Below are positions 5,024 through 31,343 of a stretch of 64,000 nucleotides of DNA, one piece after another. Position 1 is the first letter of the stretch. Every line of letters begins with the position of its first letter. The position numbers were made by a program, and so were the translations under genes. Below the pieces are notes generated by a model. It was not told the DNA's origin. It saw only the letters and a list, made by a program, of their open reading frames with translations, and ran no database searches. The DNA comes from Rhodoluna lacicola (GTDB lineage Bacteria > Actinomycetota > Actinomycetes > Actinomycetales > Microbacteriaceae), in assembly GCF_000699505.1 (NCBI RefSeq), contig NZ_CP007490.1, positions 620,001-684,000 on the forward strand, given 5' to 3'.

Positions 5024-6258
5024 TGGCCGGCCCACTGCCTATCGGCGACCCTGCTCCAGCAGACGGCAGCCTTCCAGCGCAAGCAGCCGTTGGTGCCGCA
5101 GATCGAACTTTTCACGCTTACGTGCACATTCCTTTTTGCACGGTTCGCTGCGGTTACTGTGATTTCAATACCTACACAGCCGGTGAACTGGCGGGGGCAA
5201 GGCAATCAGATTACGCAGATGTTTTAATTGCAGAAGTAAAGTTCAGCGCTCAGGTGATCATGGATGCTGGACTACCTAAACGAAAACTCAGCACCGTGTT
5301 TTTTGGTGGCGGCACACCAACTCTTTTACCTGCTTCCGATCTTGCGAGAATTCTTGAAGCGCTAAGAAATGCTTTTGAAATTGTTGAAGATGCTGAGGTG
5401 ACCACAGAGGCTAACCCCGATACGGTTGACGCCGATTACCTACGCGAACTAAGAAACGGCGGATTCAATCGAGTGTCCTTCGGCATGCAATCGGCCGTGT
5501 CTTCGGTTTTAGCAACGCTGGAACGCTCACACAATCCGGAAAATGTTTCCATCGGAGTTGCGGCGGCTAAAGAACTTGGGTTGAAGACTTCGGTTGACTT
5601 AATTTATGGAGCACCAGGAGAGACTCTTGCAGAGTGGCGTCAGAGTGTTGAAACTGCAATCGCAATGCAGCCTGATCACATCTCTGCCTATGCACTAATT
5701 GTTGAAGATGGCACCAAACTTGCTCGGCAGATTAAGGCTGGTCAGCTTGCCGAACCGGATGAAGATCTGCAGGCAGACAAATACGAGCTCGCCGATTCAC
5801 TTTTGGCTGACGCTGGATTCGATTGGTACGAAGTAAGTAACTGGTCACGTGGATCAGAGAATTTATCGGCACACAACATTTCGTACTGGGCATCGCAAGA
5901 CTGGTGGGGGTATGGTCCAGGAGCACACAGCCACGTTGGTGGCGTGCGTTGGTGGAATGTAAAGCACCCAACCAGCTTCGCTGCGAAACTTGCTGAAGGT
6001 AATTCACCAGCGGCCGGTCGCGAGACTCTTAGCGAAAGAACGCGACTAGAAGAGCGCGTACTACTTGAAATAAGAATTAGCGAAGGCTTGAGCGTGGATT
6101 TGGCCAAAAAGGTAAATCCTGATGCCGGAAAGTTGATCGCGGGTTTCATCGCCGATGAACTGGTGGATGCCAAGGCGGCTATCGGTGGCGTTTTGAAACT
6201 CACGCTCAAAGGGCGGCTTCTAGCCGATTCATTAGTGCGTAAATTGCTGGCTGATTAG
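5023..6258 (+). CDS. hemW: Radical SAM protein HemW (HemN-like, heme chaperone)
   Basis: A 411-aa radical SAM protein with the cluster-binding motif PFCTVRCGYCDF (Cys-x3-Cys-x2-Cys) near residue 40 and the SAM-binding GGG stretch FFGGGTPTLL. It resembles HemW, a proposed heme-inserting chaperone, rather than the oxygen-independent coproporphyrinogen dehydrogenase HemN. The GTG start overlaps the lepA stop by one base, with purine-rich AAGGG upstream. lepA-hemW is a common bacterial pair. Confidence 0.9.
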   Translation: MAGPLPIGDPAPADGSLPAQAAVGAADRTFHAYVHIPFCTVRCGYCDFNTYTAGELAGARQSDYADVLIAEVKFSAQVIMDAGLPKRKLSTVFFGGGTPTLLPASDLARILEALRNAFEIVEDAEVTTEANPDTVDADYLRELRNGGFNRVSFGMQSAVSSVLATLERSHNPENVSIGVAAAKELGLKTSVDLIYGAPGETLAEWRQSVETAIAMQPDHISAYALIVEDGTKLARQIKAGQLAEPDEDLQADKYELADSLLADAGFDWYEVSNWSRGSENLSAHNISYWASQDWWGYGPGAHSHVGGVRWWNVKHPTSFAAKLAEGNSPAAGRETLSERTRLEERVLLEIRISEGLSVDLAKKVNPDAGKLIAGFIADELVDAKAAIGGVLKLTLKGRLLADSLVRKLLAD

Positions 6259-28481: not shown

Positions 28482-29945
28482 TTGACCCCTGGTTCTAATC
28501 CGCCGGCCAACGAGCCGCTGACTATTGTTATTGGCTGCGACACGTTCCCGCCCGACATCAATGGTGCCGCTAGATTCGCTGAGCGCCTTGCCGCCGGGCT
28601 TGCTCGACACGGGCACGATGTGCACATAGTGGCATCTTCCTTTGATGGCACTCACGGGGCCTTTACTGAAATCCACGATGGCCAAGCCATGACCGTGCAC
28701 CGAATCAAGAGCTATCGGATTCCCCAGCATAAAACCTTGCGCTACGTCTGGCCGTTTACACTGAAAGCAAAAACCGATGAAATATTGCGTCAGGTCAAAC
28801 CAGATGCGGTGCACATCCAATCGCACTTAATCATGGGGCGCTACCTAGCCAAGAGTGCAAGGGAGCAAGGGATTCGCCTTTTGGCGACGAACCACATAAT
28901 GCCTGAGAACCTAATTAAGTACTCGGTGATTGTTCCTAAGTTTTTAGAAAAAACCGCGATGAAACTTGCCTGGGCAGATGCGGGTCGAGTTCTTCGTCAA
29001 GCGGATTTTGTGACTACACCAACTCGTCGCGCAGCAAACCTGCTTGAGCAAGCCGCTGGTGTGACAGATGTGTTGGCAATTAGTTGCGGAATTGATGCAT
29101 CTAAATTCGCCAATGCAACACCGACAACAAATGAGAATCCACGAATTTTGTTTCTTGGTCGCCTGGATTACGAAAAGCACATTCACAACCTTTTGAAGGC
29201 TGTGGCGATGCTGCCAAAGAAATTAAACACTCAGGTCGAAATAGTTGGCGATGGTGGTGAACGCAAGCACCTTGAAAACTTGGCGCTTGAGCTTGGCATT
29301 TCAAAACAAGTGACGTTCCTCGGTCATATTTCTGAAGAAGAGCTTCCTAAGGCTTATGAGCGGGCCACGCTCTTTGCAATGCCTTCGATTGCAGAATTGC
29401 AAAGCATCGCCACCATGGAGGCAATGGCATCGGGTCGACCAGTGGTGGCCGCAAACGCCATGGCTCTTCCGCACCTAGTCCACGACGGCGATAATGGGTA
29501 TCTTTTTGAGCCAGATGACGTTCAAGAATTCAGCGAAAAGCTTAGGAAGATCCTCACTGCTGATCAGGCAGAACTAGACCGCCTGTCAGAGAATTCACTG
29601 CACCTAATCCAGTCGCATGATATTGAAAGAACGCTCTCTATTTTTGAGGGTCTTTACCGCGGCGATCAAGATTCGGATAGAACTTCTGATGACAACAGTG
29701 AGACTTACACGCAGGCAATTGGACTATTGCCTGAACAACTTCACAACCGAGTCGTTGAGCTACGAGAAAGGGCCAAAGCATTGCGCGAGGCTGCTGCCGA
29801 GTTGCGTGAGGAAGTTGTTGAAGATGTGCGTGAAAAACTTGAGGACATTCGCGACGAGGTGAAGAAGTCCGCAAAAAAGACTGCAATCAAAGCTAAGAAA
29901 GTTGTCAAGAACGCCACCGAGCGTCTCAAAAACGACGAGGATTAG
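28482..29945 (+). CDS. Glycosyltransferase family 4 with charged C-terminal tail
   Basis: A 487-aa GT-B fold enzyme. The N-terminal acceptor domain starts TIVIGCDTFPPDINGAARFAERLAAGLARHGHDV; the donor-binding domain has RILFLGRLDYEKHIHNLLKAV and the EX7E-type segment FAMPSIAELQSIATMEAMASGRPVVA. It resembles diacylglycerol or phosphatidylinositol glycosyltransferases of actinobacteria, so membrane glycolipid synthesis is a reasonable guess. Residues about 415-487 are an extra helical stretch rich in Glu, Arg and then Lys (AKKTAIKAKKVVKNATERLK). The start is TTG 28482 with AAGG upstream. Confidence 0.82.
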   Translation: MTPGSNPPANEPLTIVIGCDTFPPDINGAARFAERLAAGLARHGHDVHIVASSFDGTHGAFTEIHDGQAMTVHRIKSYRIPQHKTLRYVWPFTLKAKTDEILRQVKPDAVHIQSHLIMGRYLAKSAREQGIRLLATNHIMPENLIKYSVIVPKFLEKTAMKLAWADAGRVLRQADFVTTPTRRAANLLEQAAGVTDVLAISCGIDASKFANATPTTNENPRILFLGRLDYEKHIHNLLKAVAMLPKKLNTQVEIVGDGGERKHLENLALELGISKQVTFLGHISEEELPKAYERATLFAMPSIAELQSIATMEAMASGRPVVAANAMALPHLVHDGDNGYLFEPDDVQEFSEKLRKILTADQAELDRLSENSLHLIQSHDIERTLSIFEGLYRGDQDSDRTSDDNSETYTQAIGLLPEQLHNRVVELRERAKALREAAAELREEVVEDVREKLEDIRDEVKKSAKKTAIKAKKVVKNATERLKNDED

Positions 29946-29958
29946 AAGATAGCAGCTG

Positions 29959-30033
29959 GGGGAGTTAGCTCAGCCGGTTAGAGCAGCGGACTCATAATCC
30001 GTCGGTCACGGGTTCAAGTCCCGTTACTCCCCA
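29959..30033 (+). tRNA. tRNA with CAT anticodon (tRNA-Ile2 or elongator tRNA-Met)
   Basis: A complete cloverleaf with acceptor GGGGAGT paired to ACTCCCC, D-arm GCTCAGCCGGTTAGAGC, anticodon loop CTCATAA, T-arm ACGGGTTCAAGTCCCGT and discriminator A; CCA is not encoded. It is not the initiator, because the first acceptor pair is matched. The D-arm, the GGTC variable loop and the GGTTCAAGTCC stretch resemble E. coli tRNA-Ile2, which reads AUA after lysidine modification, but elongator Met cannot be excluded by eye. Its last bases are the first bases of the tandem array that follows. Confidence 0.9.
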
Positions 30034-30410
30034 CTTGAGAGTTTCATTGAACGGGACTTCGAAAACCACCTGACGGTGCTTTTCCATTACTCCCCACTTG
30101 AGAGTTTCATTGAACGGGACTTCGAAAACCACCTGACGGTGCTTTTCCATTACTCCCCACTTGAGAGTTTCATTGAACGGGACTTCGAAAACCACCTGAC
30201 GGTGCTTTTCCATTACTCCCCACTTGAGAGTTTCATTGAACGGGACTTCGAAAACCACCTGACGGTGCTTTTCCATACTCCCCACTTGAGAGTTTCATTG
30301 AACGGGACTTCGAAAACCACCTGACGGTGCTTTTCCATACTCCCCACTTGAGAGTTTCATTGAACGGGACTTCGAAAACCACCTGACGGTGCTTTTCCAT
30401 ACTCCCCACT
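30026..30410 (+). repeat. Six-copy 62/63-bp tandem array abutting the tRNA 3' end
   Basis: The anchor ACTCCCC recurs at 30026, 30089, 30152, 30215, 30277, 30339 and (partial unit) 30401. The first three periods are 63 bp and the last three 62 bp, differing by one T before the anchor; the units are otherwise identical. Each unit includes the tRNA's last acceptor bases, a hairpin GAAAACCACC-TGAC-GGTGCTTTTC with one mismatch (30061-30084 in unit 1), and AACGGGACTT (30050-30059 in unit 1), a perfect complement of the tRNA T-arm bases 30016-30025. Every unit is the same throughout, so this is a minisatellite-like array and not a CRISPR. Confidence 0.95.
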
Positions 30411-30418
30411 CCTTCCTT

Positions 30419-30424
30419 TAGTAT
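30419..30424 (+). promoter_or_regulatory. Probable -10 of the amino-acid ABC transporter operon
   Basis: TAGTAT starts 9 nt after the last repeat base and would begin transcription near 30431, leaving about 16 nt of leader containing AAGGAAAGG before the ATG at 30447. Any -35 would fall inside the end of the tandem array, so changes in the array end could affect this promoter. Confidence 0.45.
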
Positions 30425-30446
30425 GGTGAAACAAGGAAAGGCCCTC

Positions 30447-31343
30447 ATGGCAAACAAGCAGAGCAACGATGACGTTGTAGCCGTGCCTCTCAGGCATCCC
30501 TGGCGCTGGGTATCTGCAGTCATTTTGGTGGCAATTCTTGGGCTATTTGTTTATTCCCTCTGGGCTTCGCCAAACATAAATCACGAAATCGTAAGCAAGT
30601 ATCTTTTCAATGAAAAAGTTATTGCAGCAGCGGGGCTTACTGTTTCGCTCACCGTGATTTCGATGCTGATTGGCACAATCCTCGCCATAATTTTGGCAAT
30701 CATGAGACTTTCATCAAATCCGGTGCTGAAGCTTGTCTCGATTGGCTACATTGGTTTTTTCCGCGGGACTCCGTTGCTGTTGCAGGTAGTGTTCTGGGGT
30801 TACCTAGGCATCATTTACCCAACCATCGACATCGGAATCCCATTTACCGACATGATCTGGTGGTCCGAGAAAACCTCGCTGGTCTTCACATCACTGGTGG
30901 CTGGAATTATCGCTCTTTCGCTTAACGAGGCCGCTTACTCCGCGGAAATCGTGCGCGCCGGTATTTTATCGGTGGACTCAGGGCAAGCCGAAGCAGCCAA
31001 ATCTCTTGGAATGGGCTCTGGTTACACCCTGCGCAGAATTGTTCTGCCTCAGGCCATGAGGGTAATCATTCCTCCGATGGGTAATGAATTCATATCGATG
31101 CTAAAAAACACATCTCTCTTGCAGGTGGTTGCCGTCATGGAACTGTACGCCCGTACTTCGCAGATTTCTTCGCAAAACCTTGCTCAGGTTGAATTGCTTG
31201 TGGTTGCCGGCTTCTGGTACCTGGTCATGACTACTGTTCTCTCATTCCCGCAAAGCTACCTAGAGAAAAAGTACGGTAGGGGATTCAGCGTTGCGACTCA
31301 AAAATCGCGATGGCTTCGAATCGGTATGAAGGGGAACGTATGA
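30447..31343 (+). CDS. Polar amino acid ABC transporter permease (HisM/GlnP type)
   Basis: A 298-aa inner-membrane permease. It has an N-terminal membrane segment ([19 protein letters not shown]), the conserved [25 protein letters not shown] region, and the EAA loop that docks the ATPase ([44 protein letters not shown]). The ATG at 30447 is chosen because AAGGAAAGG lies 5-6 nt upstream; a frame start at 30423 precedes that site. The stop overlaps the ATPase ATG. Substrate is probably a polar or D/L-amino acid, but not determinable. Confidence 0.92.

Follow-up and report, generated by a model that had tools for sequence, protein, structure and literature searches.

Repeats that carry tRNA ends are already known. 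At the tyrT locus of E. coli, 178-bp tandem repeats carry the 3' end of tRNA-Tyr (rtT RNA, Rfam RF00391), and integron attC sites, which also occur in arrays of short units, retain their structure while their sequence varies. At tRNA genes used by integrative elements, the T-loop itself can be the target, as described for the integrase of mycobacteriophage Ms6 with its 26-bp core (PMC1762012). The tRNA-end array of Rhodoluna lacicola described here is similar to tyrT/rtT in that tandem direct repeats lie downstream of a tRNA gene and each has a copy of the tRNA 3' end. Unlike at tyrT, however, the unit is only 62/63 bp long and contains a conserved complement of the T-arm and a covarying hairpin, and the element recurs behind several tRNAs and appears to exchange sequence with the tRNA itself. 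A match to the Rfam rtT model was found neither in the window at the gathering score nor in seven loci at E up to 1. Like genomic islands and prophages at tRNA genes (e.g. Ms6), the element restores the tRNA and has a repeat of its 3' part, with a length of up to 38 bp, at the opposite end, but the insert has neither an integrase nor genes, only ~36-60 nt lie between the repeats (~140 nt at tRNA-Ser) and a conserved hairpin is located beside the distal copy. The retention of structure despite varying sequence and the arrays of short units are reminiscent of attC sites, but attC core motifs were not seen by eye and the units are tied to tRNA 3' ends. Finally, near-identical tandem units whose number differs among relatives are a feature of bacterial minisatellites (VNTRs), but the unit in Rhodoluna includes part of a functional tRNA gene and a conserved, structured core. 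It is possible, albeit doubtful, that the element belongs to a class distinct from all of these.

The array and its tRNA gene

The window, i.e. the whole 64-kb stretch of the R. lacicola genome that was analysed, contains a CAT-anticodon tRNA called by ARAGORN at 29959-30034, which is one of 39 tRNA genes in this genome. The other two CAT tRNAs are the initiator and the elongator tRNA-Met, the latter located beside tRNA-Thr(GGT). Since both Met genes exist separately, a tRNA-Met identity was discarded and the gene is, by elimination, the single-copy tRNA-Ile2(CAU) (29959..30033, plus strand). In plastids, trnI-CAU adjoins ycf2, and the assignment therefore fits a sub-threshold antisense match of the locus to the plastid ycf2 leader model in the Rfam search.

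The motif ACTCCCC was found seven times, starting at 30026, 30089, 30152, 30215, 30277, 30339 and 30401, with spacings of 63, 63, 63, 62, 62 and 62 bp in this order. The array comprises three 63-bp units (unit 1, 30026..30088; unit 2, 30089..30151; unit 3, 30152..30214), three 62-bp units (unit 4, 30215..30276; unit 5, 30277..30338; unit 6, 30339..30400) and a terminal partial copy, ACTCCCCACT (30401..30410), all on the plus strand. Unit 1 begins with the acceptor 3' strand of the tRNA itself and unit 2 with its first distal copy; one T, missing for the first time at the end of unit 4, is the sole difference between the units. Tandem Repeats Finder reported the array at 30024-30410 with a period of 63, 6.2 copies, 99% matches and a score of 753 and found no other array in the window. 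Further, a search of the whole 1,430,433-bp single-contig genome revealed no copy of the unit elsewhere. These data reproduce the coordinates and counts of the preliminary description and its statement that the end of a CAT tRNA is involved, the units starting at the acceptor 3' strand, and their identity except for one T is in line with the recent amplification or homogenisation proposed there. The array is surrounded by genes encoding a deformylase, a transporter, a glycosyltransferase and an amino-acid ABC transporter; a tyrosine integrase is not encoded in the window, as had been noted before. Two repetitive open reading frames arise from the array, at 29992-30285 (minus strand, 97 amino acids) and 30076-30324 (plus strand, 82 amino acids), and are probably due to chance since 62-bp units shift the frame.

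The tRNA gene has one extra T at the border of T-stem and acceptor stem (30024-30025; CCCGTTACTCCCC), and intact copies in relatives were read without it. The extra T lowers the Rfam tRNA score to 57.3 bits, compared to 74.5-74.6 bits in six relatives. It is present in the tRNA and in the first three downstream junctions but not in the last three; thus, a sequence feature is common to the array and the tRNA gene, which indicates either an exchange between gene and array or growth of the array after the change. The two types of unit had been taken to descend from two parent units. They are better read as the result of a single T that was inserted in the tRNA or the first unit and spread to the next three junctions by exchange or expansion.

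Conserved core of the unit and its predicted fold

Between the tRNA ends, the unit consists of a variable spacer, the 11-mer GARCGGGACTT and a hairpin. In unit 1, the 11-mer GAACGGGACTT is located at 30049..30059 (plus strand) and contains ACGGGACTT, the reverse complement of AAGTCCCGT in the T-arm; the hairpin GAAAACCACC-TGAC-GGTGCTTTTC, which covaries across species, follows at 30061..30084 (plus strand). The 11-mer, which is altered in G031 and G063, has a mean pairwise identity of 0.92 vs 0.34 for the ten bases of the adjacent spacer that precede it. The last nine bases of the 11-mer form the reverse complement of the 3' half of the T-arm plus loop, and it matches its own tRNA far beyond shuffled sequences at Ile2 and in three out of four cases at tRNA-Val. 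Moreover, in the two lineages G011/G063 and G059, its variable base and the T-stem changed together, whereas this co-change is broken in G005.

The hairpin was analysed in 12 species aligned to a covariance model. All ten pairs were changed on both sides, 92.4% of the hairpin cells were paired compared to 42-49% with the partner slid by one column, and the covariation score was reached by none of 500 shuffles, but this alignment was fitted to the model and hence leans towards structure. An unfitted MAFFT alignment of seven species gave the same picture, with 93.2% of the hairpin cells paired. Thus, the hairpin is a conserved structure with compensatory changes, as is typical of cis-regulatory RNAs. 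An intrinsic terminator was rejected as an explanation, since no site was scored in 29700-30600; the hairpin is followed by CC and not by a T run, and several species have no T in the stem.

To describe the unit merely as a tRNA end duplicated with its trailer, as in the preliminary description, does not account for this core of 11-mer and covarying hairpin, which recurs in 13 Rhodoluna species at tRNA-Ile2 and in four at the unrelated tRNA-Val(GAC). In the minimum-energy fold predicted for tRNA-Ile2 plus one unit, the partner of the 5' acceptor strand is the distal copy in most carriers, and that of the 3' half of the T-arm is the 11-mer. The alternative fold is less regular in G031 and G008, and G001, G059 and G063 keep the native acceptor stem in the predicted fold. 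These predictions refer to equilibrium, and the tRNA may be favoured by cotranscriptional folding and by modification. The native acceptor stem had a predicted probability of at most 0.07 in 10 of 13 carriers but of 0.64-1.00 in 15 non-carriers, and the strand-swapped fold was the best one in none of the latter. Three tRNA-Val carriers are predicted to behave likewise, with ~8-11 kcal/mol vs tRNA and trailer folded apart. The insert may therefore be a cis RNA element that acts on its own tRNA through strand swapping; distal copies and complementary segments of DNA-level origin would make strand swapping possible as well.

Distribution among Rhodoluna tRNA genes

Sixty Rhodoluna genomes were searched, followed by inspection of the tRNA-Ile2 loci, and a covariance model built from seven species was applied to 67 Rhodoluna genomes. 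The model matched 14 of these, 13 at tRNA-Ile2 and one (G066) at the end of a tRNA-Val. The preliminary description had proposed to compare copy numbers in relatives; with one genome per species, the numbers were 0, 1, 2, at least 4 and 6, as would be expected for a live repeat. A single unit was found in G030, G031, G005, G011, G059, G062 and G001 and a degraded one in G008 and G063. Arrays were present in four genomes, with six units in the window genome (G000), at least four around an N gap in G046 and two each in G058 and G055; those of G046 and G058 have unit sequences of their own. With respect to an accretion of new units at the tRNA side, the pair G055/G001 was ambiguous. At single-unit loci, the distal piece of tRNA is not followed by a second hairpin, and therefore the ground state is an insertion flanked by tRNA-end copies and not a simple tandem duplication. 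In G011, the insert is bordered by a copy of tRNA end and trailer that is exact over 26 bp (CCCGCACGCCCCACCAAGCATTTATT), and the distal copies follow their own tRNA: G005 and G011 have ACGCCCC in the acceptor and in the distal copy, and G062 has ACTCCCT in both.

Many Rhodoluna genomes have no insert at tRNA-Ile2, and clean empty sites are found in close relatives. In G009, the ABC-transporter permease that is also present in the window comes directly after the tRNA, and the flank at this empty site is the one that adjoins the terminal partial copy of the array. Since only about a fifth of the genus carries the insert, it is not essential. In a lepA phylogeny of 59 genomes, carriers were scattered, with 12 changes compared to a shuffled mean of 12.6; G066, whose match is really at a tRNA-Val end, was counted there as an Ile2 carrier, but the scatter is independent of it. 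Clean losses would be expected from precise deletion between two tRNA-end copies, and the scattered pattern would likewise result from horizontal replacement or new insertion.

No match was obtained in 300 genomes of the family outside the genus, using strict filters with few candidates scored per genome, and a GTDB pattern scan returned only Rhodoluna-type loci and unrelated matches (Kitasatospora, an Acidobacteria MAG and a Chloroflexi repeat). The latter, from a groundwater Chloroflexi MAG (JACQOS01 contigs), has inverted arms (AAGTCCCGCTC...GAGCGGGACTT) and is abundant there, with more than 20 copies; it is unrelated to the Rhodoluna element. A phage origin was dismissed, as the phage matches listed cover the tRNA only, and a search of IMG/VR viral contigs with the insert and unit patterns gave nothing beyond two chance matches.

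The Ile2-type layout was also found behind tRNA-Val(GAC) in G066, G012, G027 and G013. Here, a segment complementary to the 5' half of the T-arm (CGAACCAGTG; altered in G013) is combined with a hairpin of the GAAAC...GTTTC type and a distal copy that starts at the T-loop and comprises up to 38 bp. In the window genome, three of the 39 tRNAs have a repeat of their own 3' end, namely Ile2, Arg(CCG) (24 bp) and Ser(TGA) (27 bp), and in the remaining ones such a repeat is at most 9 nt long. For comparison, none of the 42 tRNAs in a streamlined genome of another genus (G078) shows a repeat of at least 9 nt of its own 3' end, and shuffled downstream sequences gave at most 10. Both the Arg(CCG) and the Ser(TGA) locus lie outside the window. 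Downstream of tRNA-Arg(CCG) (G000:C1:419099-419239), there are a 62-nt insert with a hairpin and the 24-bp copy of the tRNA's own 3' end, and this insert is missing from 29 Rhodoluna relatives. Behind tRNA-Ser(TGA) (G000:C1:71112-71372), a terminator, a long hairpin, the 27-bp copy of the 3' part and a second terminator follow each other. In G046, 13 nt of the 3' end of tRNA-Arg(CCT) (G046:C3:52365) recur 38 nt downstream (TTCTCGGGGGCAC), and a GGCC-rich hairpin precedes this copy. Thus, as in integrative elements, the 3' part of the tRNA is directly repeated at the far end. A complementary segment was not significant compared to shuffles in the Arg(CCG), Ser(TGA) and Arg(CCT) cases and, therefore, the Arg and Ser cases share only the direct repeat and the hairpin.

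Origin and possible role of the element

Taken together, a class of repeat-flanked, structured and gene-less insertions is present at Rhodoluna tRNA 3' ends, here with six units. The reading that we prefer, with a probability of roughly 0.45, is that the array is an amplified repeat-flanked insertion that expands and is excised by recombination and, if it has any effect, acts as a cis RNA element on the tRNA. At the DNA level, a small non-coding insertion, of which the array is the amplified form, sits behind tRNA genes in Rhodoluna; it leaves the tRNA in place, and beyond it the 3' part of the tRNA occurs once more. Recombination between the tRNA-end copies would then cleanly delete or multiply the insert, which we infer to be the route of expansion and loss, and would also pull the tRNA gene itself into sequence exchange. 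At the RNA level, the 11-mer may open the T-arm and the repeated 3' end may replace the acceptor 3' strand of the tRNA; the outcome of such a strand exchange in the transcript would be a strand-swapped fold and not a normal tRNA. The likeliest role, if any, would be to delay or restrict, in cis, the maturation of its own tRNA. tRNA genes are among the most constrained loci and, if this reading is true, the locus would be one of few natural examples in which tRNA supply is influenced by an unstable DNA element, based on a repeat that shares sequence and mutations with a single-copy tRNA gene and on a competing fold. Natural transformation and gene replacement both work in R. lacicola (PMC11577799), and the consequences of deleting the array for tRNA-Ile2 are therefore directly testable. 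A more far-reaching and rather unlikely version would be a new gene-less hairpin element able to insert behind various tRNA genes, in each case carrying a copy of the host tRNA 3' end and a segment complementary to the T-arm of this tRNA. Its transcript could flip from the tRNA to a strand-swapped anti-tRNA fold and back, and its flanking repeats would allow precise multiplication or loss.

Among the alternatives, a mobile mini-element is the most probable, although still unlikely. Here, a non-autonomous insert of ~36-60 nt would be moved by a recombinase acting in trans that recognises the folded hairpin and targets and duplicates the T-loop/3' part of the tRNA, and the array would arise by repeated insertion. 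This is consistent with the finding that five tRNA species have direct repeats of their 3' part (13-38 bp), with clean empty sites, with the absence of the Arg(CCG) insert from 29 relatives, with the scattered carriers and with a structure retained while the sequence varies. T-loop-targeting integrases such as that of phage Ms6 leave such repeats (PMC1762012), and an integrase is encoded near an orphan tRNA-Val 3' end in G064. However, a PF00589 search of 67 genomes revealed no integrase near any carrier locus, neither an integrase gene nor cargo is present between the repeats, the insert being too short for a gene, and neither circles nor viral copies were found. Furthermore, inserts at different tRNAs have a common layout but little common sequence, and the distance between the complementary arms varies, unlike in the core of a tyrosine recombinase. 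A link to an integrase acting in trans is possible, and the element may point to an unrecognised recombinase or to a template-switch route aimed at tRNA ends.

Less probable still is a plain, functionless minisatellite in which the tRNA end, the trailer and a weak terminator were tandemly duplicated by slippage and unequal crossing-over, a view similar to that of the preliminary description. It would explain the near-identical tandem units in variable number, but not that single-unit loci end in a piece of tRNA without a second hairpin, that the core is conserved and covaries, that the same layout lies behind tRNA-Val and that no terminator-like site was scored in the region. That the inserts are scars of prophages or islands that had integrated at tRNA T-loops and were deleted down to their two ends is improbable to a higher degree: independent deletions would not retain the 11-mer and the hairpin by the distal copy in 13 species and likewise at two tRNAs, and no hairpin of this kind adjoins the orphan Val end in G064, although the tRNA 3' part is repeated and tRNA-Val in G064 and tRNA-Ile2 in G003 seem to be sites of true elements. 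Finally, the R. lacicola genome is a Newbler assembly with gaps closed by PCR and Sanger sequencing (PMC4156110), but a miscounted copy number in the 385-bp array of 62/63-bp units is hardly credible as the explanation since a collapse would invent neither two types of unit nor a T that the array has in common with the tRNA, and other species (G046, G058) have arrays of their own unit sequence.

Two further loci were observed in this context. In G064, an orphan 3' end of tRNA-Val(GAC) (G064:C31, L319:1426-1447) is followed by a terminator, with a tyrosine integrase within ~1 kb, and probably represents the distal boundary of an integrative element that uses tRNA-Val. In G003, a 5' fragment of tRNA-Ile2 (G003:C25:5236-5278) is located ~170 bp from a tyrosine integrase (5449-5910), which suggests that tRNA-Ile2 also serves as an integration site there.
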